From assembly GCA_037447655.1 (NCBI GenBank), contig JBBHKE010001064.1, positions 176,677-240,676 on the forward strand: a DNA stretch of 64,000 nucleotides, written 5' to 3'. A program made the translations under genes and the position numbers. The stretch's first letter is position 1; each line of letters opens with the position of its first letter. Shown one piece after another: positions 28,205 through 60,350 of the stretch. The notes under the pieces were generated by a model. The model was not told the DNA's origin, did no database searches, and saw only the letters and a list, made by a program, of their open reading frames with translations. This DNA comes from Zygnema cylindricum (Eukaryota > Streptophyta > Zygnematophyceae > Zygnematales > Zygnemataceae).

Positions 28205-28972
28205 CGTTAATCATGTAACTCTAGAAATAGTGTCAAATAACCTTATATTATAAGCTTCGTTTTTCCACTCTAACCCTCCTATAAGAAACAAAAATTAAGT
28301 AATAGAGTAGTATGTATGTAATTGTTTTACTTTTTTTTTTCCTAGTGCTTTTATTAATTATTATCGTTGTTAGTTAACATCCATTGTTTGTTTTTTTTGT
28401 TTTTCTTTTTTGCGGTGCTTGTTCTTTGATGATGTTGTTGTTTATAAACAAATTTTTGTTTCATTTGTTGGTTATCCTTGTGTTTTTTTTTGCAGTTGAT
28501 GTGTGTTGTTCAACCGGGTTTAACATTGTATCAATGATGGCGATAGGTATTACCATTGTGTTTGTTTGCGTGGGTATATAATGTCTATTAACAACAGAGG
28601 AAAACCCATTTGTGCCCCACGTGAGTACTTTTCAAAACCACGTATGATTCCATTTATTGCATATTTTTTCTCACATATATACTTAAGAACGATGATAAAA
28701 ACTGATGAGTCTAGCTAAAGCATTCAATGGCCTAGTCAAAGATGAATCAATGACATCGTGAAGTTCAATTTTCATCTTCTTTTTTTAGTTCGCCTTCAGG
28801 TCTTAATTTTCGAGTATTTTCTTGTTATACATTTTTGCTCTCTTCTTCTTAAGACCTTTGTGAACATTGGTTGGTAATGTTTGTGAGGAGCGTTGACAAC
28901 AAAGGGATATTACTAATTTGTGCATAAATTTTTGCAGCGGTGGATGCTAGTTCGAATCTACCACAAACCTAT
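28205..28972 (+). pseudogene. Inverted partial copy of the mosaic protease gene (EGF2 exon to LysM exon)
   Basis: This plus-strand segment matches the reverse complement of about 33,893-34,700. It includes an intron part, the second EGF-like exon (28,495-28,611, preceded by TTTTGCAG), the following intron, and the first bases of the LysM exon (28,938-28,970, preceded by TTTTTGCAG). In the EGF exon about 16 bases covering the second cysteine are deleted. This shifts the frame and removes one disulphide partner. Homology ends abruptly at 28,972, where an LTR-like TGTTGGGATATTG begins. It cannot encode the module. Confidence 0.85.
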
Positions 28973-30732: not shown

Positions 30733-30981
30733 TTAATAACACCCTGCCACTTTATTTCCCGCATTATTTTTACAAGATTTAGGGCATATAATTCTTCCGA
30801 CGGCCCAATCAGATCCACCTTTTACACATGCCCCGGCGTTCTTCCCCATACAAGCTTTCCACGACGAACGTGATCTCGATCCGCAAAACGCGGAAATTAC
30901 GGAATTACACGTGTCAGTTCTTTTCCACTTGTAGTACGGCTTACAAGCTAAGGGAGGGACGCTCTGAGAGGCCACACATAC
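30733..30981 (-). CDS. Exon 15: cysteine-rich C-terminal tail and stop
   Basis: The exon begins after TTTTGCAG and encodes VCVASQSVPPLACKPYYKW, RTDTCNSVISAFCGSRSRSS, CMGKNAGACVKGG and IICPKSCKNN, ending GCY then TAA (30,735-30,733). The module has regularly spaced cysteines and does not match a family I recognise. A similar sequence is duplicated at 59,740-59,935. Confidence 0.8.
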   Translation of the reverse strand, partial: VCVASQSVPPLACKPYYKWKRTDTCNSVISAFCGSRSRSSWKACMGKNAGACVKGGSDWAVGRIICPKSCKNNAGNKVAGCY

Positions 30982-33900
30982 CTGCAAAATATAACAAAAA
31001 GGAAACATTGAAATTTCAGTTAAGCAGCAGTGCTTCTCCCCCTCGTCCTCTTCCTTCCCCGTCTTCTTCTCTTCCTCTTCCTTTCCCTCACCATCTCACA
31101 AGCCCTTTCCCCCTCCCCTCCCCATCCCCCCCTTCCCCCTCTGCCACTATCTCCGCGTGAGCCACTGCCTTTACCTCCGCCTCCCCCTCTTCGTCTACCT
31201 CCTCTCCCTCGGCTCCTTCCCTTCCTTCCCTCTCCCTCCTCTCTGCCTCTGCCTCCCCTTTCTTTCTGGCTCCCCCACTCCCCCTCTCTCCCCCTCTCTC
31301 CCCCTGTTCCTCCCCTCTCCATTCCGCTCCCTCCCTTATCCCTTCCCCTCCCTCTCCCTCCCTCCCCCTCTCCCTCTCTCTCCCTCTCCCTCACCCTCCG
31401 TCTCCCTCTCACGCCCTCTCCTTCTCTCCCTCTCCTCCCTCCCTCCCTCCCTCCCTCCCTCTACCTCTCTTTCTTTTCTCTTTTTGATCTGATTGGATGG
31501 AAGCATCTCAAAAGAAAAATACGAAACAAAAAATTATAGAAAGAAAAAACATGGAGCCACAAGAGTTCTTATACATAAATTTGTGACAGGTGTCTCGTTT
31601 ACTCAAATTTTTATTATTTGCACTTTATGTCGAAATGTGTAAAAAACATTTCCAAGTTGTCTTTACCGTTTGTCCCACATAAAACTTTCCACAGTTGATG
31701 CCTCGGTTGATTTCAAAAAAGTCGAGTCGAGAGATTTTTGTCGTTCTTGCTCGAATCGAATCGCATGGAGAACTACTACTTCTGTCACTTTCTTGCACGT
31801 AAGCGACTTGATTACATACTTTGGTCGGATCTGGAGTCCCTTTTTGAATGCAAATCTGCACAGTTTAACACATTTTCCGTTCTTAGAATTTCAAGAAATT
31901 ACATTTATAGCCGTACATATTTCGAACCTTCAAAGTAGGCGTACAAAAAATTGCAACTTGCACTATGAAGTGGTCTAAATGTTAACAAAAAGTTCACCCG
32001 AGCGTAATTCTCTAGGAGATCTTTCCGGTTTATTTTTTTAACATTCTACAATGTCGAAACAAAAAGGATTTGAGGCATAAAGTGAGAATTTCGTTCTCTC
32101 GTTGTTTAAGGCTCAAAAACAAAAACAAAAATGCATTATGATTTTGTATTAGTAATTGAATCATTCTAAGGTGTACAAAGAATAGAACATAAAGATCGGT
32201 CAAACATGTTATTATGGATTGATTACTTGATAACATTATGAGGTCAAAATGCAGTTCATTTTCTGTGGACCAATATTTTCATGAAAAAGAAAAAAAAAAT
32301 GTAAGCTCCTCCGAGATAATTTGACATGCACTTCTAATTTCCCATTTATATCGATAGTTCATCCCTGCTAGTTAAGGAGGACGGATTCCCGCCAACTTAA
32401 CTCCCTATTTCAAAGAACTGTAGTTTATTTCATCAGGGCTTTTTCAGCTTTAGGATTTGTAGATCTTTCAGACATAAAGTTAGGATTTGCACTAATGATA
32501 GAAAGGTTTTTTTTATCCGAGCTTTCACGAAGGTTATATATTTCGTAATGAGATTCTAATGTTTTGGAAGGGTATATTCCCTAGAAATGATATCATTCTG
32601 AAAGCTTTCCTTCCACTCTTTATTTTTCGTTTTGTAGATTGTCTTTTGACTTCCTTTTTGTTTTTTTGTGTGTTTTTTACTTTTCTTTACCTGTTGCCCG
32701 GGTTGAATTCCCAAAGGAAAGCCCCCTGAAAAACCGATTGAACAACTAAGTCCAGGATTCAATGAATAGAGAGAGTTTGCCGGGAGATTAAATCCTTTTT
32801 CAATAGAGGAACAAGTATCTCCCTGAATAAAAAAGAAATTCAAGACAAAAATACCACTTAAACAAGGGGAACACAAAAGGACATGAAATTGAACAGAAAG
32901 GGAGGGAGCATAAAAATCTGAGTTTTCCCACCCTCAATCACGTAAGCCATTCAAAAAAAAATGGGTAAATAAATAACAAAAAAAGAAAAATACTTGTTTC
33001 AATTCGAAATAGTAGATTAAATATATGTTGCGTTTCCACGATAAGCATTTTTGTGTACTTGTTTTTTTGTTCTCTAAAAACAAAGATAAAACTGCAATAT
33101 ATACCCATGATGTTTAATTTACAGATTATGGGTATAATGATGTTATGTAAACAAACGTTTGTAAATCTTGTGAGCTATACTTACTAGTTGAATGCTGTAC
33201 AGAACTTTGCAAGAGCTTGCCGCGGGATTTGCAACTTTTAAAACATCTCCGCTCCGTAAGTTATTACAGAGATCCTACGTCGAAACAAAAAAAAAAGTGG
33301 CATTTAATAAAGTGAAGAAAAATAGTCAATTAACGTAACAATAATATATTTGGAAGTTATGCACACAACACAGAAAGTGGAGCCAACATATAAGCGTGCT
33401 GTTGAAAACTCCCACCACAAAACATGGATAAAAAGTGGTTAGGTTGCACTTCCATTTTTTTTTGAAGTTGTCATCATATTTCTCATTGAAGACAAATTCG
33501 GGGTTTCAAAACTTCCCAACTAGCCAAATCCGAAAAGACAAAATTAATCCGATCTACGTATAATTGCTCATCAACTAACTAACATCAACATCATCCACTA
33601 ATTACGAATTAAGGACTGATAATGAGTTTTTGAACGCATGAGGTGAAGCCTTTCACTACAATCATCGGTTAGTAAAAAGTGCACATCAAATGGAAAAAAA
33701 TGTGCGCAGGAGGGATTAGCTAACAACAGAGTTAAGTTCCAAATGATAGTCTAGGAATATATTAGTCATGAGAGGCGTAGAAACTTTAAAACAATAAATA
33801 ATTACCCCGCGTATGTTCGTATTTTGTTTTAGAAGCTGTGGAATAGTTAATCCGAAAGAATAAGAAATAACATAACAACTGTCGCCCGGAACTACTGTGT

Positions 33901-36900
33901 ACGTTTGTGGTACATTCGAACTAGCATCCACCGCTGCAAAAATTTACGTTGAAATTAGAAATATCCTTTTTTTGTCAACGCTCCTCACAAACACATCAGT
34001 ACCAACCATTGTTTTTTCACAAAGGTCTTAAGAAGACGAGAGCGAAAACGTATAACAAGAAAATACTCGAGAATTAAGGCCTGAATGCGAACTAAAAAAA
34101 GAAAATGAAAATTTAACTTCAGGATGTTATTGATTCATCTTTGACTAGGCCATTGAATGCTTTAGCTAGACTCATCAGTTTTTATCATCGTTCTAAAGTA
34201 AACATGTGAGAAAATGATATGCAATAAATGGAATCATACGTGGTTTTGGAAGATACTCACGTGGGGCACAAATGGGTTTTCCTCTGTTGTTAATAGACAT
34301 TATATACCCACGCAAACAAACACAATGGTAATACCCATTGCCATCATTGATACAAGATCCGGCACCACACAGATTAAACCCGGTGGAAGAGCACACATCG
34401 ACTGCAAAGAAAAAACAAGGATAACCAACAAATGAAACAAAAATTTGTTTAAATACAACAACAACATTTAAGAACAAGAACCGAAAAAAAAGAGAACAAA
34501 AACAAACTACAAAAAATGGTTTTCTACAAACAACAATGACATTTTATGGAAGCACTGGAAAATGTAAAAAGTAAAACAAATACATTCATTCTACTATTTC
34601 ATTTTTGTTTCTTATAGGAGGGTTAGAGTGGAAAGAAAACGAATCTTAAAAAGTAGGGTAATTTGACACTATTTCTAGAATTAGATGTACTGATGAGTAT
34701 ACTGACATCCAAGACTGAGTTTATGTTTTGAAGGAATACAGAAACATTGAGAAAATTTTCACCGAGGAATAGTAAATGTGGAACGACTAATACTCCTCAA
34801 TTTAGTGTACAGTGCTTACATATAAATGATTTACAAAGCTCAAAAAAAAATATGACTTTATGCTTTATCGGAAATGTTTTGCCCAAATCTCAAATATATA
34901 TGGTGTACAAACATATACTACAAATCGCATCCAAAGTTAAAACATAAATTTATAAACTTAAATTAAACATAAGTGGCGTACAAGGATTAAACAAAAATAT
35001 GTACAACGATTTAGAAATAAGGATACCCAAAGATTCAATAGAAGTGATAAGCTAAAAGATGAAACATTAATGGGCGTTAGCATAAATGACAAGCAAAGTT
35101 AAAAAAAGAATGAAATGCCCACAGCTCAAATATAAATCATCTACACCTACAAAACTCACGTATGCATGAATATAAAGATGCAAAATACTTACGAAGGGCA
35201 CACGTTTTGGTTTGGTCGGAATTTTTCACAGTAATGTAGCCCTTAGCCGTACATTTACACGTGTAAGAATTTGGGAAGGGAGAGGAAGAAGGAACGCATG
35301 TTCCCGATCCACACGGATTGATTCTGGAGTTACATGCATCGCTGTCAGGAGCTGCACCAAAAAAAAAAAAAAACTCTAAGTGATATTGAAAGGACGACGG
35401 GCAAAAGGGAAAGGAAGAGAGAGAAGAAGGCAGGAAAGGGAGGGGAGGGAGAGGAAGGAGCAAGGAGAAAGGAGAAAGAGAATGCGAGGAAGGAAGAGAG
35501 TAGAAAAGCGGGAGGGGGGGAGAGCGAGAGGTAGTGTGTGAGAAAGAGGGCCTAAGTCTTGGATTAAAATGTCACATTATGAATCCAAAAAACATAGAAT
35601 TTCGGTTCTTCATTTATTGACTACAAGCTCTTTTTTTCTGTAAAACATAAATTGATAGTAAACAACCAAAGTATCACTAAAACATACCGACAATGTAGAC
35701 TTGTAACAAACAATAACAGTTAGCAATAATGATCAAAATAGTAGTAAAAAACCAGATAGTACTAAAATAAGAAGAGTATTAAAGTTAAAAGTAAGGACAA
35801 CAACAATAGTAATAATAGATGATAATAACGATAGTAAACAGTAATTATAATAAATAACAAATATAGTAAAAGTCATAATAATCACAATAATTTACTGATA
35901 GTACCCAATGCTGATGAAGGTAATGATAGTAATTTTAATAATATTAGGAATAATAACAAAAATAACAAAAATAACAATAACAACAATAATCACAAGAATC
36001 ATAATGATGACAATAATAATTATAATAACATAAAAGCTAGTAACAATAACAACAATAATAACAATAAGAACGATACTAACAATAACATTAATCACAATTA
36101 CAATACTAATAATAGCGATAACAATTTTCCAAAAATTCTTCACACGAAAATGTATTATTTAACACAAATGGATCACGAAGCTTACCTGCGATAACTGGGT
36201 ATGAAGATGGAAGAGAATTAACTCCACATATTCCTCTTTTAATTCGCCCATACCCGTTTTGACCCCAACCAGATCCAAATGAATTGCGAATAATCCAAAA
36301 TGGAACACCATTTTCTGTACCGTATCCGAAAAGCGCCACGAAATGGTTCAACTGTGAATCAATTTGACAATCATTTCGAGAATCTGTGAAGATATCCCAC
36401 TATACAAAACAAAAGCAAAACAAAAGCAAGAACAAGTTAGAAGATAACAATAATGATAATGATAATCAGAACAATAATGATGATAGAAATACAATAATTA
36501 TATTCAACAGGATATCAATAACGACATAGATAGTAAAATCAATAAGGATAATAAGAACACCAACAACAAAAACACAATAATAACAACCACCATCACAACC
36601 AGTCCGTCCTGCCCTCGTCCTCCTTCTCCTTCACCTTCTCATTTCCCTTCTCCTTCACCTTCTCATTCCCCTTCTCCTCTGACTTCTCCTTCTCCTTCTA
36701 GATCTCTTTCTACCTCTCCCACTATCTCCTGTACCCTCTCCCTCTTCCATTCCATCTCCCCCTACCCCTCCCCCTCCCCCTCCCCCTCCCCCTCCCACCC
36801 TCTCCCACCCTCTCCCACCCTCTCCCACCCTCTCCCACCCTCTCCCACCCTCTCCCACCCTCTCCCACCCACTCCCACCCTCTCCCTCCCTCTCCCCCCC

Positions 36901-39900
36901 TCTCCCTCTCTCCCTCCCTCCCTCCCTCCCTCCCCCCTCTCCCTCCCCCTCCCTCCCCCTCCCTCCCTCCCTCCCTCCCTCCCCCTCCCTCTCCCCCTTT
37001 CCCTCCCTCTCCCCCTTTCCCTCCCTCTCCCTTCCACCTCTCTGCTTACCCCTTTCCATGCCATGAACGCGTCCGTCAACACCATGGCTGTGACGGCCGG
37101 CTGGCGACTTAATACCGACATTAGTGTGGAATCTGATTGGGCCGTAGTCAGCTCGTACCGTGTAACGTCCACCTCTTTTGGTAAGTATGCCGCCTGTTTC
37201 CAAGAATAGTTACGACAAATAGAAAATCTTGTTATAATTTGTGTAATGGTATTTTGTAGTTGTGAATGGTTTTGTTTACTTTTAGATGACTAAGAAAGAA
37301 AACTATAACATTTCAAATGGTACTTCGTGACTTCCTGTATTTTTCACCCGGTGTGTATGTTTTCCAGATGTCAAAGACAAATAAATTACAGATAACACGT
37401 CAGATCATTTCTCGGAACTCTATTTCCTTCACTTGGCTTGCTTGTTTCCAAAATGACAAAACAAAAAGAAAACAGGTTATAACATGTGGCGTCCTATCGT
37501 GTGCCTCTTTTTTTGCACCTTGTTTGTCTACTGCCTAGATGACATAAAAAGAGTCGCATCTTGTAACTCTCATTGTTTTTCTTCACGTGTTTTTTTTCAC
37601 GTGGCTTGTCTCTTTCCCAAATAAAATGAGAAACAGGCTATACCAAGTGGAGTTGTATCTAACTTTATTTTTTCCACCTGGCTTGTCTTTTACATGCTAA
37701 ATTGTACCTCGTTTCTTTCACCTAGCCACGCAACATCTAAACCTACACTATTTGGATGGCGCCTAGCCAAAATGATACAGGTAAACCGACAGAAATTTCT
37801 CACAATACAGCTTCCTATTACTGAACCTAATCTTACCTATCTTACATGATACTCAAAACAACTTCCTATTCCATGAAAAAAAAAAAAAAAAAAAGAAAAC
37901 TCACCCAACAGCTTAATGCACTAATAAACTAAAATTGAAAAGAAATATGAAAATCCTACCTTGCAGCTTCCGGAAGTTTGACCTTCATAAACTCCATAAT
38001 CTTTTTGTGTCACAAGACCTCCAGATCGTGAAGCCAACCAGTTAAAATTATCTTCGGCCCAACCTCCTTGGCAAGAACCAAAACAATCTAAAACTTGTTG
38101 TTCCGAAAATGCGTTAGGATTCACACTTTTTCCCAACCAAATGTTGTATGCTCCTTCAATTGCAGCAACAACCGCAAAAATCGAACATGCACCTGTGAAA
38201 AAAACGGCACAAGGGGGTATAAACAAGTATGTGCTTGTACACCAATGCTTCCAAATTGATAAGATCAGATTGACAATTTTCTCTTAGTTATGTGGCTCAC
38301 AATACAAAATGGCAATTTTTAAGTTTGGAGTTCTAGATTGTGTTGACGGTATTAGTGACAAATCGGGTGTGAAATTACAAAGCTTAGTTGACTTGATGAT
38401 AAAATTCAGAGACTTCTTTTTTTTTTACACATCATTATCGACAATCAACCACAAAAAAATTGAACTCTTGATACGGATGATTTGCGCATTTTTTCAAAAA
38501 AGAGATGTCCATAAAACCTAAAATTAGAGCATCAAATAGTACTTTTTCGAACTTTTTTGAATCTCTATTGTAAGAAAAATTTTCCGGTTAAATATATTCA
38601 TATAAACCGGCCTCCATTGCTTCTGTGATGATGATAAATTATATGCTTCCGCCTGCGTATATAGCTTTTGTGCTTATTTAGGTTCCTTTTACATCAAAAA
38701 GGTTCTTTTGGACTTGGAATTCTTCTCACTATGCAACCAGACTGCTAACTCACTACCTAACTGTACTAAACACGTTACGCCCACCAAAACACGTTGCACC
38801 CAAAGAGAACGTGCTTTGAACTGACACACGGTACCATTACCTACGTAAGAAATAACTTAAATACTGCCAATCTTACGAAACTCAAACTAAACATATTGGC
38901 ACGAACCCGGCCGATACGCCAATTCACACTAAGTATCCTAAAAGTAAGCAACTATAAAAAATGTATTACAAGAAACAAAAAATAGTGGTGATTTAAGCCA
39001 TTTACCGCATGAGCTTTGGTCCTTTACTGGTCCAATATACAACGACCAATCGACAGAAGCTGGAAGATTGGTAATGTGACTGTAATGTCGAGAAAAAACA
39101 TTCAAATTCGCAGTAATTGCAATAGGGTCTTTCGATTGAGAGAGACCCGAGGGCGCTGTTCATTAAAAAATGGAAAAAAACAAGATATGAAATAGAATGT
39201 TACACAACTGTAAAGAAAGAAACTTTGATTGAAGGGTTTTCAGCTGTATTTAAAGACATTCGAAAGACATACAAAAAAAGTAATGTAAGCGTTTTCAACA
39301 AAAGAGAGGCTCCTAGATAGTGTTAAAAAAATAGAGTAACCAATAAGCAAGCTCTAAAAGTCAAAGAAGGAAAAACATTTGTAGATGGCATGTTTTCTAG
39401 GATTTTTAAGGTTTAAAATGGTTATGTCCTCAGGAGTTTAAATGGTTACACACAAGAATCAGCATTTGCTGAAGATTTGGCTTGTGGTAACCATAGTTGA
39501 TTGCAAATATTCCCATCATTGACCAATTTGCATGTCCACTGTATTACGCAATCTCCAATTCCGCCACCTTGTCCATCAATACAATTCCCTGACATTTTAT
39601 TTTGCCATTGGGTTCCAGATTCCGTCTCTGTAGTAGAAAAAATTGGTGCCCAAAGTTGGCTATCGTGACGATTGCAATCTGAAAAAAAAAGAATGAAAGC
39701 GGGAGATACTTATGATGAGATTTAGGTGCAAAATGCCCTTTTATATTATTGCAACACAAAAGAATGGGAAAAGAAAGGATATGGTGAATATTTTATTGCT
39801 TGAGAAGTTGTGTAGTCATGGTAAGATAATAGAAGAAAGTAAAAAGGTTTAAGTTTTTTTAAATGGTAACCAGAAAAGATACCTAAGTACACATGAAACA

Positions 39901-42900
39901 TAAGTTGGTACATATGAACCAGATCTTGTTAGGCAGGAAAAGACTGCTCATGGGTTCGCGGGCAATTACTTGAAAACGATTGAGAAAAATAGAGAGCGTT
40001 TTACTGAAGGGTCCAATAGTACAAGAAATTTAAATGTAGAAACAATCGCAGAGCTAAATTCACTAGGTGAGAGATGTGCTGGTACAGGTAAACTTAGAGG
40101 TTGTGGTAGAGGTGAAGACCAGGGTGGTAGTTCAGACGGGAAAAAGAATACGGTTCAACTATAATTATTCATTTTAGATATTTTAAGCTTATCCATACTC
40201 GTTTTCATCATCCAGATCCTAATTTAACCTCCCCTTAATAGGGCCTTGATGGCTTTATCATTTACAAAAAAAGGGAGCTTCAAATGTGTGACAAATTTTT
40301 GTGTCGAACACGACCAGATACGTTCAATAATGTAGATCCCTAATCGACATTTTCATGAAGCGTCAAAATAGAATAAAGGAAGGGAAGTTTAAAACTTTTA
40401 TATTGACTGGGATTGAACAAAGCCAAAAAAAAAACATATTTACATTGATTAGGAAAAAAACTATGAAAAATACTTGAACATTGAAAAATGCATTAAACAC
40501 TTACTTGAAAGAATCACCTCTGATCCCAAAGTACTGGACGAAACCGAAAGACATTTCCCCGTGTTCTGTTGAAAATAATAATAGCCGTTATAAGCAACGA
40601 CGCTCCAAAGTCCTCCGACATTGTTATCAAAACCATTGGGATCTGTCCAAAGAAGAGAGAAGCCAAAAAAAAATACTTCAAAAAAAAGAAGAAAAAATGG
40701 ATCGTGTTCATCACAAACACCCAAAAGAAAACGAAACAGAAGGATGAAAAACGCTCGCAAACAGGAATGTCAAACAGCAGAATCAAAAATGGTTGCCGAG
40801 AGAAAATGTAAAAACTAAAAATACAACTTACACTACACAATGTTGTCTAAGAAGAACCAAAAACTGTTATATCGAAAAAAAAAAGGCAGAAGTTGTCAAC
40901 AAATAGAATGTCGATGAAAAATGTACATAAACCGGACCCATGCAATATATAAATAAAATTAATTCACAAACAAGAGATAAAAGATCAAATATTACAATGG
41001 TTAATAGCTAATAAGAAAGAAATGTCATCATACGAATTAAAAAATCAAATGTAAAAATTGTGTATAACTAAATGCAAAGGAATGTCAACATAAGAAATAG
41101 ATATTCTGAAATATATATAACAAAAGAAATGTTAAACCATAATCAAAGGAAATGCCAACGTAAGAAAAACAATGAACATACATTGCAATTAAGAAAATCT
41201 TATAACAAAAGAAAACCAAGAAATGGATAAAAAGTTAAAACACTTCAATTGTACATAACTAATAACAAAGGAAATGTCAACATAAGGGAGAAAATTTAAA
41301 CATGTGATTGCATTAAAATCAATAATAAAGTATTGTCAAAACAGGAGAAAAAAGTTCAAGAATTACAATTGTATAGCCGAATACGAGTTCCTTGCAAATC
41401 ACGGTTGTTTTCCGCCGACCAGGCATTGAAGGAAAGGGAGGGAATTACTAGAAATGGTCCTGAGCTCGGAGATGTCCATGGACTCACATCCACTGCCAAT
41501 GTACATAAAGAGAGGGGGGGAGGTAGAGGCAGAGGTTGAGGAAGTGGGAGGAGAGACAACAAATCCGCGTTGCAATACTACCACTAACCCTCATAGTAAT
41601 TCTTGGTGTACTTCAACACCAACACCAAAACATTAACTGTACTTGAAAACACGCTAAGCGCTTTGTGCCACTCTGTTGAGAAGGTACAATTAGTCCACAT
41701 TCAACAATTAAATATGCATGGCATCCATCACAAGATCATGCGGTTCTTTAATAATGCTACAGAGAGAAATCATTCCCATCTTCTAGGTACATTTCGAACT
41801 CCAATGTTGAGTAATTTGGGCAATGATCGAGTTGAGAGTGTCAATTTGTTAATAAGAAGTATATTTGGGCAGCCAGCATACAGTCATATGTTTACGGAAA
41901 GAATTACATTCACATACTAACAAAAACGAAGACATCCAATGGAACATGTAAAGACCAGCTTCTCTCTTGTTTCTAAATGAAATGTTGGAATAATGCTCAT
42001 CGATCCACATGTACATGTCGACACGTGGAGTGGCCAAATTCCTAAAAAATCGCTGGTTCACCACAGGTCACAAGCTCGACTTTCAACTTTTCTAATCCTT
42101 AAGAGAACATGTTTTTTGTGTAGTCTGGAATGCTAACAAATCCTAAAAAGATTAGGCATAATCGCCAACATATCTATAAACCTGACATTTTTTATCGGAA
42201 ACACCAAAACTGATAGTCATACAGTTAGCTTTATAAACAAGGTTGGTTATCAAAAATGATTCTCCGTAAAGGTTCTCCAGGTCTCCTAACAAGCAAGAAA
42301 TTGTTGAATGTTCACTTTTGTGTTTTCGATAGAAAAATGCTCTCTTATGACCTCATTCAACAACATGACATTGGTTTTCGTAAAAATCAAAAAATCATGG
42401 CGATGTCATAGCCAAGGTCAGAACCGATAGGACGAGATTGACGGAGACATCTCACATCAAATTTGAAGATGGTACAAAGCAACGAAAGCTCGGAAATGAG
42501 ATTTTTGTAAAAGTACAAAATCTCTCAAAAGCCATCGGTTAAATAATCTCCATTGGGCAATGGACACAACAAGGAATATTTGATTGACCATAATTGGTTG
42601 ACGGGACCAAAATAATGCAAATAGCAGGAATTCACCATGTGACATGGAAAACAAGAACTGGTAAACATATACATGATTGAATGAAAAATTTGGGTTTAGA
42701 GGCTTACAAGGTTTGACATACAAATCCAAATCAGTGTTATCTGTCAGTTTAGATTCCACTTCAATGAATTACTTGAGCCAACACATTTTGAATGAAGGCG
42801 ACAGATTGAAGCCTTTGCAACCGCAATCTTTGCCGCATACACCAGCACAGTAATTCCACGCATCGCTCGAGCTCAGGCTTGAAATTGGCAACCCTTGGAT

Positions 42901-45900
42901 GTCATTCCCGGGCGAATCTTTTCTTACAAACTCCTGCCAAGCGACGTTCTGTATGCATACTGAATCATATACACCAATGTTTTTGACAAGTTAGCTCTTT
43001 GTAATTGATTATTCATGCTTTTAACACTGCATATTTGTTACTTTTATATCATATTTAGCGTTACTTAGAGAGTCTTGAGAAATAGTTTATAGGTACGACG
43101 AATGTATAGCAATTCCTACAGAAAATCCTTCGACATTTTTATTAATCTTGTCATGAACATGTGTGCATCAGCTTAACAGTATAAGATAGACAAAGACGTT
43201 TATGTGTGTTCTCTTCTTAGCATAGAGCACAACTTTTGGGAGAGGGATTCGTTTGAAGAAGAATAAAGCTGAAAAAAAGCAGCTTATTTCTGAAGAAATG
43301 GAGACATTTGGAATTTTTGATTAAATATACGACCTTTGACCATTAATATACATCACAATATCGTAAAAACAATGCAAAAAAACAGAAAACAATCGTTTCA
43401 ACTATAGATGCAAATTTGGTCTAACTGAACATTATGAAACTAGAACTGTCACGAAATAGCCACCGTTGACAAATGTTAGGCTGTTTTTAATATTCACTGT
43501 GAAAAGTCCATTTTCCAGGCAAAAACTTTAAACACCAAAGGGACTAGGGAAAACTCCAATACTGATACAACAACAATAATAAAAAACGGCAAAAAAATTT
43601 GTTTTCAACCTTCAAAAACAGGTTTAAAGTGCACCCATTTCTAAAATTTGAAGTAAAGCATTCATGGCAAAAGAAGTGGTTAAGCTAACTCTTTTATACA
43701 CCAAATAGAAGGTGAGTGGATTAAACATATGGGCTTCAAAGAAAGACAACAATTACATAACCTTAAACCGTTTTGGAAGGAGAAGGGTTAGGAAAAAAAA
43801 CCACAAAAAGAAAAGTTAGCAAACATTATAACCTAGCGTTTCAAATTATGGCAAATAAAAGAATATATAAATTGAAAAAAAAAAAAATTACCAAGTTAAA
43901 GCCATCCATGTACCAAATAAGATGTTGTACCAAGAAGTTGAATGTGCGCTTTTGTGTTGTCGATAAAAATATATTCTCTTATGACCTCATTCAACAACAT
44001 GAAATTGGTTTTCGTAAAAATCAAAAAATCATGGCGATGTCAACAGCCAAGGTCAGAACCGATAGCACAAGATTGACTAAGGCATCAAATTTGAAGATGG
44101 TGCAGAGCAACGAAAGCTCGGAAAATGAAATTTTTATGAAAGTACAAAATCTCTCAAAAACCAACTCTTGGATAATCTCCATTGGGCAATGGATACAACA
44201 AGGAATATTTGATTGAACATATTTGGTTGACCATGAAGACACAATACAGCATGACCAAAACAATACAAACAACAAAAATATTTCATGTGACAAGTAAAAC
44301 TAAAACGGGCACATTTGTACATGATTGAATGAGAAATAAAGGTTTAGAGGCTTACGAGGCCTGACATACAAATCCCAATTAGCGGTATCTGTCAGCTTAG
44401 ATACCACGTCAATGGAAGACTTTAGCCAACACATTCCGAATGTAGGCGACAAATTAAACCCTCTGCAATTGCAATTTCTGTCGCATGCACCAGCACATTT
44501 CTTCAACGCGTTGCTCAAGCTAAGGTTTGAAATTGACAACCATTGGATGTCATTCCAAGGTGAATCCTTCGTTGCAAACTTCTGCCAAGCGACTATTTGA
44601 TTGCATACTGAATCACAAACACCAATGTTTATGGCAAGTTAGTTTTTGATAACCGATTATTTCATGTTTTCGACACTGCATAGGTGTTAAGTTTTATATC
44701 ATATTTTCCGTTACTTAGGGAGTCTCAATCAATGTTTTCTTGGAATGACAATTGTATAGTAATTCCTACAAAACACCTTCCGACCATTGGTTTCATCTTG
44801 TCGACATGTGTGTGTCAGCTTAACTGTAGAAGAAAGGAAAAGACATCGATTTGGGGTCTCTTCTTACAACAGAGCACAACTTTCGCTAGTGAGAGGAATT
44901 TGATTGAAGAACAGAGCTGAAAAAAAGCATCTTGTTTCTGAGAAAATGGAGATATTTGATTTTGCTAAATGAACATACGACTTTTGACCATTAATATACG
45001 TCACAATGTAATCATATTAATGCAAAAAACAAAAAACTAATCATTTCAACTAAAGATAAATCTAACTGAACAATATGAAAGACTAGAATTGTCAAAAAAT
45101 AGCACCGCTGACAGTTGTTAGTGTTACGATTCATTGAAATAATCGTACGCACGCGGAATCAGTTTGATTTCGCGAAAGAAAAACTGTACTTTCTAGAATA
45201 TACCGAAAGTACAGTTACGTGTGTTTAGATAAAGTTCTAGTTGTTTCGCGAAACATATTTGTCGTTTCGTTTCGCGTCTAGATTGTGGTACGTCTAGTTT
45301 AGTACGATAGTACTTTTAGATTTGTCTAGTACTTTCGTTTTGGTTTGTCGTTTTGCAATGCTTCAGTCCTTGGTGAAATTTAGAGTATTCTAGCTTAATC
45401 TGCGGACAGGTGGCAGATTTCTGGAGGCTTCTTGGCGGCGCACGCTCACACGTGTCACGCCATGGATGGTATTGTATTTAAGGGACACCATGACTGTGTG
45501 TTAATCAATCAATGAGAAATTGGAGGATTATATGGAGTAATAGAAGAGATAGAGAAGAAATTGTAATTTCAGTTTTTTGTTAATGTGAGAATTTTCTGAA
45601 ATGTCTCTTCAATGTTGATTCAATGTTTTATATTCTGAATGCTTCTGCTGCTATAAGTGTTTGTAAGTGAGCTCAAATTTATTTATCGATCCTTTCAGTT
45701 AGGCTGTTGTGAGTTGTCACTTTGAAAAATCCATTTTTTAGGCAAAAACTTTAAAAACCATGTGCGCGCAAGCATTCGTGCCAAAAAAAGGGGCTAGAAA
45801 ATCAGTAAACACGAAAATAAAAGTTAGCCAGCATCATAACACCATAACCTAGAGTTTCAAACAATGCCAAATAAAAGTATAAAAAAGCTAAAAAGAAAAA

Positions 45901-47451
45901 TTAATTATACCAAGTTAAGGGCATTCAAGTACCAAATAACGGGTTTCCAAACAAAGTGTACAATTTGGACTCCTTTTCACCAGTTTTTCATGGTCAAGCG
46001 TACACGCCAACCAACTTAGCTCTTTCGAATAGACGTTCTACTCAACAAGACAGAAATTGTAAGTTTTGGATTCCTATTGTCGGCTTAAGGACTAGACCAG
46101 GGACAGTCATCAACAATGACGTGGACTCCATAAGAGCTTGTTTTTTGCATTGTAGGGAGTTGCGCCATCAGACGTAGCGCCTTACTTTTAGCCTTCACCT
46201 CCAAAAGCAACGAAAATCGCACTTTTACGTTATTTTTTTAAGTTGCACAATTGAAAACGTCACCGTCAACAATGGTGACGATGGTGATGTGCACAAACTA
46301 TTCAGGTTGACGGGTAAATGTTTATGTGAAACGGATTGTTAGGATGCGTAATGTGCGGAATCAATTTCAATATCAATGTCAATGTCAATTTCAATGTCAA
46401 TGTCAATTTCAATGTCAATGTCAATGTCAATGCCAATGTCAATGTCAATGTCAATGTTAATGTCAATTTCAATGTCAATTTCAATGTCAATGTCAATGTC
46501 AATGTCAATGCATTTTCAATGTCAATTTTGCGATGCAAATCGCGAAACTATACTCAAATCGAATCGCGCCACGTAAACCAAAACATAGCTAAAACCTGCG
46601 GACCGCCTTTTTACAACATTGAACCTAACAAATTTATTTATGTTGATTCTTAAGTAGTGGGGGTACGCTCAGTCGCGCGTGACGTCACTCATTTTATTTG
46701 ATTATATTTCGGTGGTACTTTTTCACCGTGTGTACGTTTCGTTTCGTGTACACGTTTTGTTTCGCTTTGTTTTGTTTACGTCAAATTTACGTTGCGTCCA
46801 AGGTCAAATGTGTCGTTTTGCGGTTCAGATTTTTGAGTTAGATTCAATTTGCGGTTAAGTTAATTTGCCAGCTTGTGAGTGAGTGACTCGTGTGAATGAC
46901 AACGTGTGGAAAAAAACCACATAATGTGAGTGTATACCAGCATTGAATGGGATGTGATTTATTGATGTTCTTTATATGAGTTTATAAAGCTTCCCCATTG
47001 AGTAATTTTCAGTTTGTGTGCACTCCCATGTAGTTTGAATCCTGTCAAGAATGAGAAACTCGGGTTTAGACGCTAGAGGCTCACCTGCTTTTTTCACAAA
47101 CAAATCCAAACCATTGTTTACTGCCAATCGAGATTCCACTTCGACGTAAAATTTCAACCAACAAGTTTCGACGGAGTTTACTTTAGGCGACAGATTGAAG
47201 CCTTTGCATCTGCAATCTTTGGCGCATTCACTCGCACAAAATTTATATCCGTCGTCCCCGGGGTAGTTCGTCAATGTCCGCGGTGAGATATCATACCCAG
47301 GGGAATCCCGTCCTGTAAACTTTTGCCAGGAAACAGGATCTGTGCATCCTGAATCATAGGCTGCAAATAATCCCTCAGGGAAACCAGCGAGCATAAGAAA
47401 GACGGTAACGAATCGAATGATTTGTTTGCAGGAGTCTCCAACCATGGCCAT
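30733..47451 (-). CDS. Secreted mosaic cysteine protease: PAN-ricin lectin-papain-EGF-LysM (15-exon model)
   Basis: The gene model joins 15 exons with consistent GT-AG sites and phases and predicts about 904 residues. Order: signal peptide (1-30), two PAN/apple-like modules (about 35-205), ricin-B-type lectin region (about 207-355), papain C1A protease (about 390-605), two EGF-like modules (about 608-705), LysM region (about 715-825), Cys-rich tail (about 825-904). The catalytic set is Gln405, Cys411, His553, Asn573. No I29 (ERFNIN) prodomain was seen. It is predicted to be secreted and to bind glycans through its lectin and LysM parts. The combination is unfamiliar to me. Exon boundaries are inferred from sequence alone. 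Confidence 0.8.
30990..31480. repeat. Pyrimidine-rich tract in intron 14
   Basis: The plus strand is nearly all C and T from about 31,030 to 31,470 (TCCCTCC, CCCTCTC runs), so the coding strand is G/A-rich. Open frames here (for example 31,020-31,412 and 31,030-31,539) are artefacts of low complexity. A comparable tract follows the duplicated tail exon at 59,985-60,345. Confidence 0.9.
31500..32690. other. Remainder of intron 14
   Basis: AT-rich intron sequence with no recognised exon, repeat or mobile element. Frames at 31,670-31,978 and 32,030-32,236 show no family similarity. Confidence 0.5.
32691..32822 (-). CDS. Exon 14: LysM module 2
   Basis: The 132-bp phase-0 exon (ATTCAG/GGAG to CAACAG/GTAAAG) encodes GDTCSSIEKGFNLPANSLYS, LNPGLSC and PLGIQPGQQ. 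Joined to exon 13's YSIQL it forms a second LysM-like module (YxIxxGDTCxSI...LNPGLxC...IQPGQxVCV), closed by VCV from exon 15. Confidence 0.85.
33185..33274 (-). CDS. Exon 13: LysM module 1, C-terminal half
   Basis: The 90-bp phase-0 exon (CGTAG/GATC to CAACTA/GTAAGT) encodes DLCNNLRSGDVLKVANPAAS and CKVLYSIQL. CNNLxxGDVLxV closes the LysM fold begun in exon 12, and LYSIQL starts the strand leading to the next repeat. Confidence 0.85.
33806..33933 (-). CDS. Exon 12: LysM module 1, N-terminal half
   Basis: The exon runs from TTTGCAG/CGGTGG to CGCGGG/GTAATT (phase 1 to 0). It encodes NVPQTYTVVPGDSCYVISY and SFGLTIPQLLKQNTNIRG, which is the first half of a LysM (YTVxxGDSCxxI...LxxxN). LysM modules bind GlcNAc-containing glycans such as chitin or peptidoglycan. 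Confidence 0.85.
34261..34401 (-). CDS. Exon 11: EGF-like module 2
   Basis: The 141-bp phase 1-1 exon (TTTGCAG/TCGATG to CCCCAC/GTGAG) encodes VDVCSSTGFNLCGAGSC, NGYYHCVCLRGYIMS and KPICAP, again with six cysteines. This exon is the one copied in broken, inverted form at 28.5 kb. Confidence 0.85.
35193..35351 (-). CDS. Exon 10: EGF-like module 1
   Basis: The 159-bp phase 1-1 exon encodes a six-cysteine EGF-like module: ACNSRINPCGSGTCVPSS, then SYTCKCTAKGYITV and TKTCALR. The acceptor follows a long T-run (GGTGCAG/CTCC). EGF modules mediate extracellular protein contacts. Confidence 0.85.
35890..36130. repeat. AATAACA-type simple repeat in intron 9
   Basis: A run of degenerate AATAAC/AATAATAAC units fills this part of the intron. 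It produces a false open frame of Ile/Val residues on the minus strand. Confidence 0.9.
36186..36399 (-). CDS. Exon 9: papain His and Asn catalytic residues
   Basis: The exon runs from GTATAG/TGGG to GCAG/GTAAG (phase 0 to 1). It encodes WDIFTDSRNDCQIDSQLNHF with catalytic His553, then ALFGYGTENGVPFWIIRN with Asn573, NSFGSGWGQNGYGRIKRG and CGVNSLPSSYPVIA. These are the classic C1A C-terminal blocks. The protease domain ends here. Confidence 0.9.
36590..37045. repeat. C/T-rich tract with 10-bp CTCTCCCACC repeats in intron 8
   Basis: The plus strand is pyrimidine-rich, with about eight tandem CTCTCCCACC units at 36,797-36,880, then CCCTCCCTCCC runs to 37,020. On the coding strand this is GGTGGGAGAG and GGGAGGGAGGG, starting only a few bases after the exon 8 donor. 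Runs of three or more G could form G-quadruplexes in pre-mRNA. Open frames rich in Gly/Glu/Arg here are artefacts. Confidence 0.9.
37050..37193 (-). CDS. Exon 8: papain central region
   Basis: The 144-bp phase-0 exon (GAAACAG/GCGG to AAAGGG/GTAAG) encodes AAYLPKEVDVTRYELTTAQS and LMSVLSRQPAVTAMVLTD, then FMAWKG. This corresponds to the stretch in papain-family enzymes where the chain crosses to the right domain (xxxALxxQPVxVAI). The following intron begins with a long G/A-rich tract on the coding strand. Confidence 0.8.
37960..38192 (-). CDS. Exon 7: papain active-site cysteine region
   Basis: The exon runs from TTTTTCACAG/GTGC to TGCAAG/GTAGG, entering phase 1 and leaving phase 0. It begins ACSIFAVVAAIEGAYN with catalytic Cys411; the residue after it is Ser, where papain has Trp. 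It continues FSEQQVLDCFGSCQGGW (the conserved SEQxLxDC and QGG motifs) and ends YEGQTSGSCK. This is the left domain of the papain fold. Confidence 0.9.
39006..39155 (-). CDS. Exon 6: protease N-terminal part with Gln405
   Basis: The 150-bp exon (AACAG/CGCC to ATGCG/GTAAA) encodes a short linker, NLNVFSRHYSHITNLPAS, then the papain mature start VDWSLYIGPVKDQSSCG. The Gln of KDQ is the oxyanion-hole residue. A canonical I29 inhibitor prodomain is absent here and in the preceding exon, which is unusual for a C1A peptidase. Confidence 0.85.
39454..39678 (-). CDS. Exon 5: ricin-type lectin repeats, second half
   Basis: The acceptor is preceded by a strong polypyrimidine tract (TTTTTTTTTCAG); the donor is ATTCTT/GTGTG. 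The exon completes the previous repeat as NCNRHDSQLWAP (the CN...QxW signature) and adds SGNCIDGQGGGIGDCVIQW and NICNQLWLPQAKSS. Reading past the donor would reach a TAA within a few codons. A shorter isoform ending here is therefore possible if the intron is retained. Confidence 0.8.
40505..40642 (-). CDS. Exon 4: ricin-type lectin repeat
   Basis: A 138-bp exon with acceptor TTTGGACAG/AT and donor TTCAA/GTAAGT, phase 1 at both ends. It encodes PNGFDNNVGGLWSVVAYN, then YYYFQQNTGKCLSVSSS and GSEVILS. The GKCLSV and VILS segments match the conserved core of ricin-B lectin repeats, which bind galactose-type sugars in characterised proteins. Sugar specificity cannot be told from sequence. Confidence 0.8.
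41367..41459 (-). CDS. Exon 3 (probable): first ricin-type lectin repeat
   Basis: A 93-bp symmetric phase-1 exon is bounded by CTCAG/GACC and AATT/GTAAT. It encodes PFLVIPSLSFNAWSAENN and LQGTRIRLYN. The GTRxRLYN pattern is typical of ricin-B beta-trefoil repeats, whose next residues would be CN...QxW. Splicing to exon 4 places GGLW soon after, in the position of QxW. The donor is weak, so inclusion is likely but not certain. Confidence 0.55.
42708..42959 (-). pseudogene. Damaged third PAN/apple exon (in-frame stop)
   Basis: This is a tandem copy of exon 2 with identical length (252 bp) and splice sites in the same places (CAG/TATGC acceptor, CCTT/GTAAG donor). It retains VAWQEFVRKDSPGNDI, CAGVCGKDCGCKGFNLSP and MCWLK, but the next codon is TAA. 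Because the exon is phase-1 symmetric, skipping it preserves the frame, so the gene can tolerate the stop. It may act as a premature-stop exon when included. Confidence 0.8.
44356..44607 (-). CDS. Exon 2: PAN/apple-like module 2
   Basis: This 252-bp exon is symmetric, phase 1 at both ends. The acceptor is GATTCAG/TATGC and the donor CCTC/GTAAG. It encodes VCNQIVAWQKFATKDSP, the cluster CAGACDRNCNCRGFNLSP, and MCWLKSSIDVVSKL, closely paralleling exon 1. The polypyrimidine tract before the acceptor is weak. The same exon is duplicated at 42,708-42,959 in damaged form. Confidence 0.8.
45122..45697. mobile_element. Solo LTR of a copia-type element (576 bp) in intron 1
   Basis: The insert starts TGTTACGATTC and ends CCTTTCA, and is flanked by the 5-bp duplication GTTAG (45,117-45,121 and 45,698-45,702). 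The uninterrupted sequence exists in the paralogous tandem unit near 43,480, where the flanks are joined directly. This proves it is an insertion after the tandem duplication. It contains a TATA-like GTATTTAAGG near 45,474. There is no internal coding region. Inferred orientation is plus from TATA placement, but this is uncertain. Confidence 0.9.
46361..46526. repeat. TCAATG/TCAATT hexanucleotide array in intron 1
   Basis: About 27 consecutive hexamers alternate between TCAATG and TCAATT with few interruptions (one TTAATG, one CCAATG). It gives repetitive frames on both strands, none of them a gene. Confidence 0.95.
47085..47451 (-). CDS. Exon 1: signal peptide and PAN/apple-like module 1
   Basis: The start is the first Met of MAMVGDSC, followed by a hydrophobic run (FVTVFLMLAGFPEGLFA) typical of a signal peptide. 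The module contains CTDPVSWQKF, then the cysteine cluster CASECAKDCRCKGFNLSP, and CWLKFYVEVESRL. The donor is GCAG/GTGAG at 47,085/47,084 and leaves phase 1. PAN/apple modules bind proteins or carbohydrates outside the cell. A second in-frame Met two codons later (MVGDSC) is an alternative start. Confidence 0.85.
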
Positions 47452-58809: not shown

Positions 58810-60350
58810 TTCATACCAAACTAAAATTATAGCTAAGACCTTCCAAATCAAGCATTGACATTGACATCACCTCCAAAAAAAAGCCAAACTCACAGATAAT
58901 TGAAGAAACGACACCAAATTTCAAGTATAAAGCATCAGGAATAACTCTACATGAAACAAAAAAAAACCACGACTTAAATGTAAAATGTTGGACATTAAAA
59001 TGAAAACATAGAACCTTTGACATCAAAATTCATATTTAAAATTCGACATCAAAACCCGAACATAAGAAATATCAAATATCCGGGGGATCATACTTCAAAC
59101 ATAAAAAAATTAAAAGGAAAGAGGAAAAAGTAAATAAATAAAAGAAGGCAATAAAGTTCAAGCATCGAGCATCGGACATGAAAATTCAAACATGAATAAT
59201 AGCAAATCCAAACATCACACATCCAACATCGTTATTCAAGCATCAAACAAAATCAAAGATGCATTTATTTATTTTTTAAGACTTTCTTTGGAAAAAAAGC
59301 AGCACATAAGTTTTCCCAGGATGCTCCGATCAATGCAAAGGTATTTCAGGATCCAATGTCTAATATAAATCAATAAAACGTGTGCTAGATAAGTTCTCAA
59401 GGTTGCCTTTTGTGGCATTTAAGATGATTTCACCGGCATTATCGATTGCCATTCAACTTCCTTTGGTCCTCACAATTGTCTACCTTCAAAAATGTCCATA
59501 TTTTGGAATTAGCATTAAGACTTCAACATATGGTCGCCGACCTCCCTTCATTTCAGTCTTGGAAAATTTGTTGAACGACCACATGGGAATTGAAAATCAT
59601 TATAACAGACGACAGTATCTTAACCTTCAGTCCAACTACATTTTATTCATCTATCAGCCATAACTTCTGAGTCCTCGCCAGACAAACATAATAAATACTA
59701 GTTTACACACCTTGACACAAGATTTTTACACACTGGATTTTTACAAGTTTTAGTGCATATAATTCTTTCGATGGCCCAAATAGATCTTGTTGGGACACAT
59801 AACGCAATGTTACTTCCCATACACTTTTTCCACGACGACCGTGATCGCGGCCCACAAAATGCGGAAATTACGGAATTACACGAATCTCTCCGTTTCCACC
59901 TGTAGTAGGACGCTCAGAGAGGCCACACATACCTGCGAAAAGTGACAAAAGAAAACATTCAAATTTGAGTTAGGCAGGCTGCCCCTTCCCCTCCACTTCC
60001 TTCCCCCTCTTTCCCTCCCTCTTCCTCTACCTTTCCTTCACGTCCTCTTCCTTTTCTTTTCCCTCCCCTCTCCCCCGCTTCCAAACCCGCCTCCCACCAC
60101 ATCACCCACCCGTTCCCCCTCCCCTTCTCCCTTTCCTTTTATGCCTTTGTCTTCGCCTCTCCCTCTGACTCTTTCTCCCGTCTCATTCTCCCGTCTTAGT
60201 GTTCGTGTGCCTCCCCCTCTCGGCTCCTCTCCCTCGGCTCCTCCTTCCTCCCTCTTCCTCCTCTCTGTATCTACCTTCCCCGTCCTCCCTCTCCCTTCTT
60301 TGTCTTTGCCTCCCCCTTCCTCTCTATCTCCCACTTCGGCTTGTACAAAT
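58810..60350 (-). pseudogene. Direct partial copy of the protease gene 3' region
   Basis: This matches 30,070-31,460 in order: a downstream segment (AATCAAGCATTGACATTGAC, about 58,845), the tail exon (59,740-59,935, acceptor TTTTCGCAG/GTATG), and the following pyrimidine-rich intron tract (59,985-60,345). The exon keeps YYRWKRRDSCNSVISAFCG and the later cysteines, but a deletion of about 17 bases near its start shifts the frame relative to the acceptor. No upstream exons were found, so it cannot encode a full protein. Confidence 0.75.

Follow-up and report, generated by a model that had tools for sequence, protein, structure and literature searches.

What does a papain-type protease do when it shares a chain with PAN, ricin-type lectin, EGF-like and LysM modules? 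The question is raised by the window analysed here, a 64-kb stretch of Zygnema cylindricum DNA. Open reading frames, splice sites and homolog guidance describe a single gene on the minus strand, 47,451-30,733, with 16 coding exons and 978 amino acids. It opens with an ATG at 47,451 and closes with a TAA ending at 30,733. From the N-terminus, the modules are a signal peptide, two PAN modules, a ricin-type lectin, a C1A protease, two EGF-like modules, LysM modules and a Cys-rich tail; the gene, its strand, both ends and this order are as an initial annotation had claimed. That annotation had also counted fifteen exons with consistent phases. The phases stand, since all 15 introns of the 16-exon model are GT-AG with matching phases; the usable exons number 16. 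The exons, with one duplicate that has to be skipped, are as follows.

47085..47451, minus strand: E1, start codon, signal peptide and PAN-like module 1; paralogous loci C1920 and C225 have almost the same start and signal peptide
44356..44607, minus strand: E2, PAN module 2, phase 1-1; above the PAN_1 cut-off as an exon alone
42708..42959, minus strand: E3, duplicate PAN exon, phase 1-1, with an in-frame TAA at 42769-42771; skipping required
41367..41492, minus strand: E3b, first repeat of the ricin-type lectin; placed by homologs
40505..40642, minus strand: E4, ricin-type lectin (Pfam)
39454..39678, minus strand: E5, ricin-type lectin with QLW motifs; weak donor GTGTGT before a TAA near 39,445
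39006..39155, minus strand: E6, pre-protease segment with an FSRHYS motif, then the start of the C1 domain with the active-site Gln
37960..38192, minus strand: E7, C1 domain with the catalytic Cys (GACSIF)
37050..37193, minus strand: E7b, middle part of the C1 domain; placed by homologs
36186..36399, minus strand: E8, C1 domain with the active-site His and Asn
35193..35351, minus strand: E9, EGF-like module 1; below the Pfam cut-off, with relatives P0003 and P0005 above it
34261..34401, minus strand: E10, EGF-like module 2, from the exon translation; below the Pfam cut-off
33806..33933, minus strand: E11, first part of LysM (Pfam and sequences of solved structures)
33185..33274, minus strand: E12, end of the first LysM and start of the next
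32691..32822, minus strand: E13, LysM
31667..31855, minus strand: E14, divergent LysM-like module
30733..30981, minus strand: E15, Cys-rich C-terminal module and stop codon

E3b and E7b are absent from a model built on open reading frames and splice sites only, and were added by a scan guided by protein relatives. Upon addition of E7b, the match to Peptidase_C1 (PF00112) rose from 115.4 bits in two pieces to 144.1 bits in a single stretch (profile positions 1-216 of 220), above the cut-off. A protease lacking the segment between E7 and E8, as in the 15-exon model, is ruled out by the recovery of E7b. LysM (PF01476) scored 68.0 bits against a cut-off of 20.9, and Ricin_B_lectin (PF00652) 30.5 bits against 29; these three calls on the spliced protein agree with the initial annotation. 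Its PAN and EGF calls were borne out in part: PAN_1 exceeded its cut-off only when exon 2 was scanned by itself (23.2 versus 21.4 bits), PAN_1 and PAN_4 fell slightly below theirs when the whole protein was scanned, and the EGF profile was below cut-off in the exons of the window gene and above it in P0003 and P0005, the relatives from which the EGF modules are called. The LysM region matches the sequences of solved structures, namely a chitinase-A LysM, Ecp6 and peptidoglycan endopeptidases; the ricin region gave weak matches only to PDB sequences (best E 0.015). E15 had no match among solved structures and none in NCBIfam, in which P0001 had only sub-cut-off matches. The N-terminus is signal-peptide-like, and none of the eight strongest 15-residue hydropathy windows falls outside the signal peptide and the active-site helix. 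Scans with Rfam and for tRNAs across the window returned 0 matches each.

All four residues of the Gln-Cys-His-Asn site that had been claimed are present in the translated exons, in the contexts VKDQ (Gln), GACSIF (Cys), LNHFV (His) and RNSFG (Asn). The catalytic Cys is followed by Ser, not Trp, and NSF stands in place of NSW, both of which are unusual for C1A. An I29 propeptide is usual in the C1A family and is not its defining domain; no match to it (PF08246) was obtained at E up to 10 with the incomplete model or 0.01 with the full model. A short segment before the protease is shared with P0001-P0003, P0010 and P0017, reading FSRHxS or FSRYVS.

The genome (352,776,454 bases in 2689 contigs) was searched with the protease-EGF part of the protein, and 116 of 400 candidates were scored. 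Eight loci make up the paralog set, with usable exons as follows: C1920, 16; C1597, 16; C2476, 15; C695, 15; C1552, 13; C2211, 13; C225, 7; and C1615, 3. C1552 and C1615 lie at contig ends; loci from the same search left out of the set include C437, C1482, C1242, C120, C1638 and C2007. Among 98 exon copies at the eight loci, counted without any E3 copy and without six misaligned rows (C225, C2211, C695 and C2476), 89 of 94 acceptors have AG and 91 of 93 donors have GT; a single copy, E1 of C1920, contains an in-frame stop. To judge from these counts, exon and splice conservation exceeds chance. Compared with the eight paralogs, the window gene has a dN/dS ratio of 0.40-0.67, with bootstrap upper bounds of 0.54-0.90 for six of them. 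Pooled per module over seven genes, it was lowest in C1 (0.30), followed by ricin (0.43), EGF and LysM (0.48 each), PAN (0.60) and the C-terminal module (0.79), although 0.60-0.79 in PAN and the tail can also mean weak constraint. These values suggest that the whole frame is constrained, and the protease most. Some copies are damaged: E1 of C1920 carries its stop, C2211 lacks E7b, and C225 lacks E8-E15, which we read as the birth and death of copies.

A C1 search of the same genome gave 150 scored matches from 303 candidates, merged into 138 loci. Up to 10 kb upstream of C1 and on its strand, a legume lectin is present at 16 of the 138 (downstream 1, opposite strand 1), a ricin lectin at 12 (downstream 1, opposite strand 0), and PAN at six (downstream 0, opposite strand 0). 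With PAN allowed to 20 kb, PAN and ricin both precede C1 at six loci, i.e. C791 (the window gene), C1597, C1920, C2211, C2476 and C695. At C1824, C2027 and C1773, exons for PAN, a legume lectin and C1 are collinear on one strand, possibly a second PAN-bearing architecture; the lectin precedes C1 by 2.5-4.6 kb and PAN by 6-13 kb. On the evidence of these searches, the window gene is a member of a multicopy family and no one-off.

Elsewhere in the window, an E10-like fragment (94% identity over 31 residues) and an E11-like fragment lie downstream of the gene on the opposite strand (28495-28972, plus strand) and appear to be a partial inverted copy. The Cys-rich C-terminal module has a copy at 59737-59907 (minus strand, 70% identity) and recurs many times elsewhere in the genome, with no nearby protease match among those listed. 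Open reading frames at about 1.4-2.5 kb (minus), 6.7-13.3 kb (plus) and 22.7-27.0 kb (minus) resemble, by eye, pieces of copia-type retrotransposons.

A protein search brought 31 relatives: three with the same module order (P0001-P0003, 41% identity), two from Mesotaenium, 24 from Closterium, and two LysM proteins without C1. The family, multicopy in this genome, has more distant members in Mesotaenium and Closterium. A region-limited search for the C-terminal half gave 3 protein matches, one of them a fungal LysM protein. P0004 and P0005 of Mesotaenium endlicherianum share the C1-EGF-EGF-LysM core with the window protein at 34% identity, but lack any PAN or ricin match and carry Ser for the catalytic Cys; moreover, P0005 begins with an LRR (LRR-C1-EGF-LysM). 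In Closterium, P0017 and others place the C1-EGF-LysM core behind a lectin, as in the window protein, but P0017 has an LRR and a legume-type lectin in place of ricin and PAN, and such LRR-legume-lectin-C1-LysM proteins have Cys or Ser at the active site depending on the member. The N-terminus of P0002 contains a hevein-like stretch (PF00187, 23.2 bits against a cut-off of 27.8; Arundo donax lectin, E 0.00024). The pattern of Cys residues in EGF and LysM is common to the members of the C1A-EGF-LysM core. When 5318 word-sharing candidates were scored with a profile of this core, 15 proteins matched at E up to 1e-10; among these candidates, no C1 plus LysM protein outside Zygnematophyceae reached that E value, and the matches outside the group had C1 or LysM only among their listed domains. 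In trees of the C1 domain, the window gene, five paralogs and P0001-P0003 form one clade (support 100/99). Taken as a whole, paralog splice conservation, the single open reading frames of relatives and selection support one protein with PAN, ricin, C1, EGF and LysM modules, as predicted.

We favor, at about even confidence, the view that the product of this one gene is a soluble C1A cysteine protease, secreted and anchored through its own glycan-binding modules, with defence as the most likely use. The LysM modules would bind GlcNAc polymers of the chitin or peptidoglycan type, and the ricin lectin would bind other sugars; the protease would thereby be concentrated on microbial surfaces or on the alga's own mucilage, where it would cut proteins. 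In place of an I29 propeptide, the conserved short stretch ahead of the protease or the flanking modules presumably restrain activity. Microbial defence is put first because the binding modules evolve faster than the protease, because copies have been gained and broken, because the N-terminal module is exchanged among relatives (LRR, legume lectin, or a hevein-like module below the Pfam cut-off), and because one relative has that hevein-like module. The process would be glycan-anchored extracellular proteolysis, probably antimicrobial.

The main rival to microbial targets leaves the protein as it is and changes its substrate. Held in the wall by lectin and LysM, the same secreted protease could act on the alga's own matrix, in mucilage turnover, filament separation, or changes to the wall during conjugation or in the zygospore. 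A secreted protein with many adhesion-type modules would suit such a task, and LysM, lectin and PAN alone cannot tell self from non-self glycans. However, changing copy number, broken copies and the faster evolution of the binding modules fit a housekeeper less well, and the relative's hevein-like module points to chitin. We therefore regard this role, and with it the wall-held protease on which it depends, as possible and somewhat doubtful.

Another alternative concerns E3. E2 and E3 are a tandem duplication with a spacing of 1.65 kb, intron sequence included. If E3 were included, the product would end after three PAN modules; its in-frame TAA rules out E3 as part of the protein. No stop occurs at this position in the PAN exons compared, i.e. 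two in C1920, one in C2476, two in C1597, and E2 itself. The window copy might accordingly be a recent pseudogene of a genuine family, its translation ended by that TAA; other copies, in C1920, C2211 and C225, are damaged too. Yet E3 is of phase 1-1 and can be skipped with no shift of frame; PAN copy number differs among paralogs, and the remaining 16 exons are all open. Loss of the window gene is thus unlikely.

A C1 domain that no longer cuts would instead make the protein a lectin scaffold or a receptor-like binder. Suggestive in this respect are the Trp-to-Ser change beside the Cys in the window gene's own clade and the state of the active site in relatives. Among the 31 protein-search matches, the Cys position is occupied by Cys in 15 and by Ser in 10 (P0004-P0006, P0011, P0014, P0015, P0018, P0021, P0027 and P0030, hence both Mesotaenium proteins and several from Closterium), is unreadable in four, and falls in no C1 domain in two. 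P0003, of the same architecture, has Ser aligned at the active-site Asn, and in P0006 Glu replaces the Gln. With Ser at the Cys position in 10 of the 31, some members of the wider family may not be cysteine proteases; no paper on papains with a Cys-to-Ser change was found in the open-licence literature. On a 26-row tree, the Cys/Ser label requires two changes, a count that cannot separate gain from loss, and an AU test rejects the grouping of every Ser row in a single clade (p-AU 0.0015); both results are limited by long branches and by the uncertain placement of P0006, which differs between two trees. Eight Closterium Cys rows are nested inside a group of Ser rows, so that Cys may have been regained. 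Within the window subfamily, on the contrary, the Cys is kept at 10 of 10 loci picked by a pattern scan that can miss diverged copies (C791, C1920, C1552, C225, C1615, C1597, C2211, C695, C2476 and C1482), the surroundings of His and Asn are conserved in all six fetched paralogs in which E8 remains, and dN/dS is lowest in the C1 exons. A non-cutting protein at this locus is improbable.

The remaining concern lies at the junction of lectin and protease, where the initial annotation had allowed for two genes. The in-phase donor of E5, GTGTGT, is weak and directly precedes the TAA near 39,445, and the gap between E5 and E6 is 298 bases. Nonetheless, GT occupies this donor position in 8/8 fetched paralogs, as GTGAGT in C1615. 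In P0001, P0002 and P0003, from contigs of at most 2.9-3.7 kb, the lectin continues into the protease as single predicted proteins, and in P0002 a single open reading frame spans both. The Zygnema counterpart of P0002 is the following locus.

C1525:271801-274841: L055, truncated where the contig ends; a hevein-like exon, then ricin exons and E6

Matches run at 79% for its hevein-like exon, 74, 61 and 83% for the three ricin exons, and 64% for E6. Where lectin and protease join, this locus has a 311-base intron with a canonical GTAAGT donor; within the ranges scanned, no other GT/AG pairing is free of stops. P0002 reads straight through at the homologous place. Finally, model residues 370-500 contain no Met, so E6 and E7 provide no start for a separate protease. 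A PAN-ricin lectin gene ending at the TAA immediately after the weak donor, followed by a separate protease gene, is rejected as highly improbable on donor conservation, the relatives' fused proteins, the C1525 intron and the missing Met, and the worry over two genes is largely answered.

With the single-gene, glycan-held protease as the preferred reading, a wider one can be put forward tentatively: Zygnematophytes may possess a diversifying set of secreted sensor-proteases, immune or mating effectors built on a constant C1-EGF-EGF-LysM chassis with switching between Cys and Ser. Equally tentative is its exchangeable N-terminal slot, filled by PAN plus ricin, hevein-like plus ricin, LRR, or LRR plus legume lectin. 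Cys was perhaps regained in one Closterium branch. Such proteins could conceivably be extracellular effectors that carry their own pattern-recognition domain; to our knowledge, a protease fused in this way is not a layout of land plants. Papain-like immune proteases of the RCR3/PIP1 type act in the apoplast of land plants, are secreted C1A enzymes like the window protein, and may act on microbes. They carry an I29 propeptide and are not known to be fused to lectin or LysM modules.

The initial annotation knew of no plant or algal protease of this kind. That holds for the PAN-ricin-C1-EGF-LysM order, which was not found in searches of the open-licence literature; it does not hold for C1A with LysM, a combination that the available part of PMC6362431 reports from non-vascular lineages of Archaeplastida, as not retained in vascular plants. 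Those proteins join a papain-type domain to LysM in one chain, as here; unlike the window protein, none is named there with the full order. The accessible portion of PMC11289646 makes no mention of the fusion, and that of PMC11096116 describes many Lectin_legB combinations in Zygnema. The host is a green alga of the group closest to land plants, and a family uniting glycan recognition with proteolysis in a single secreted protein would show how extracellular recognition was built before the receptors of land plants. Through its split between Cys and Ser, the wider family would in turn offer a natural series in which to study at what point a protein of papain fold ceases to be a cysteine protease.
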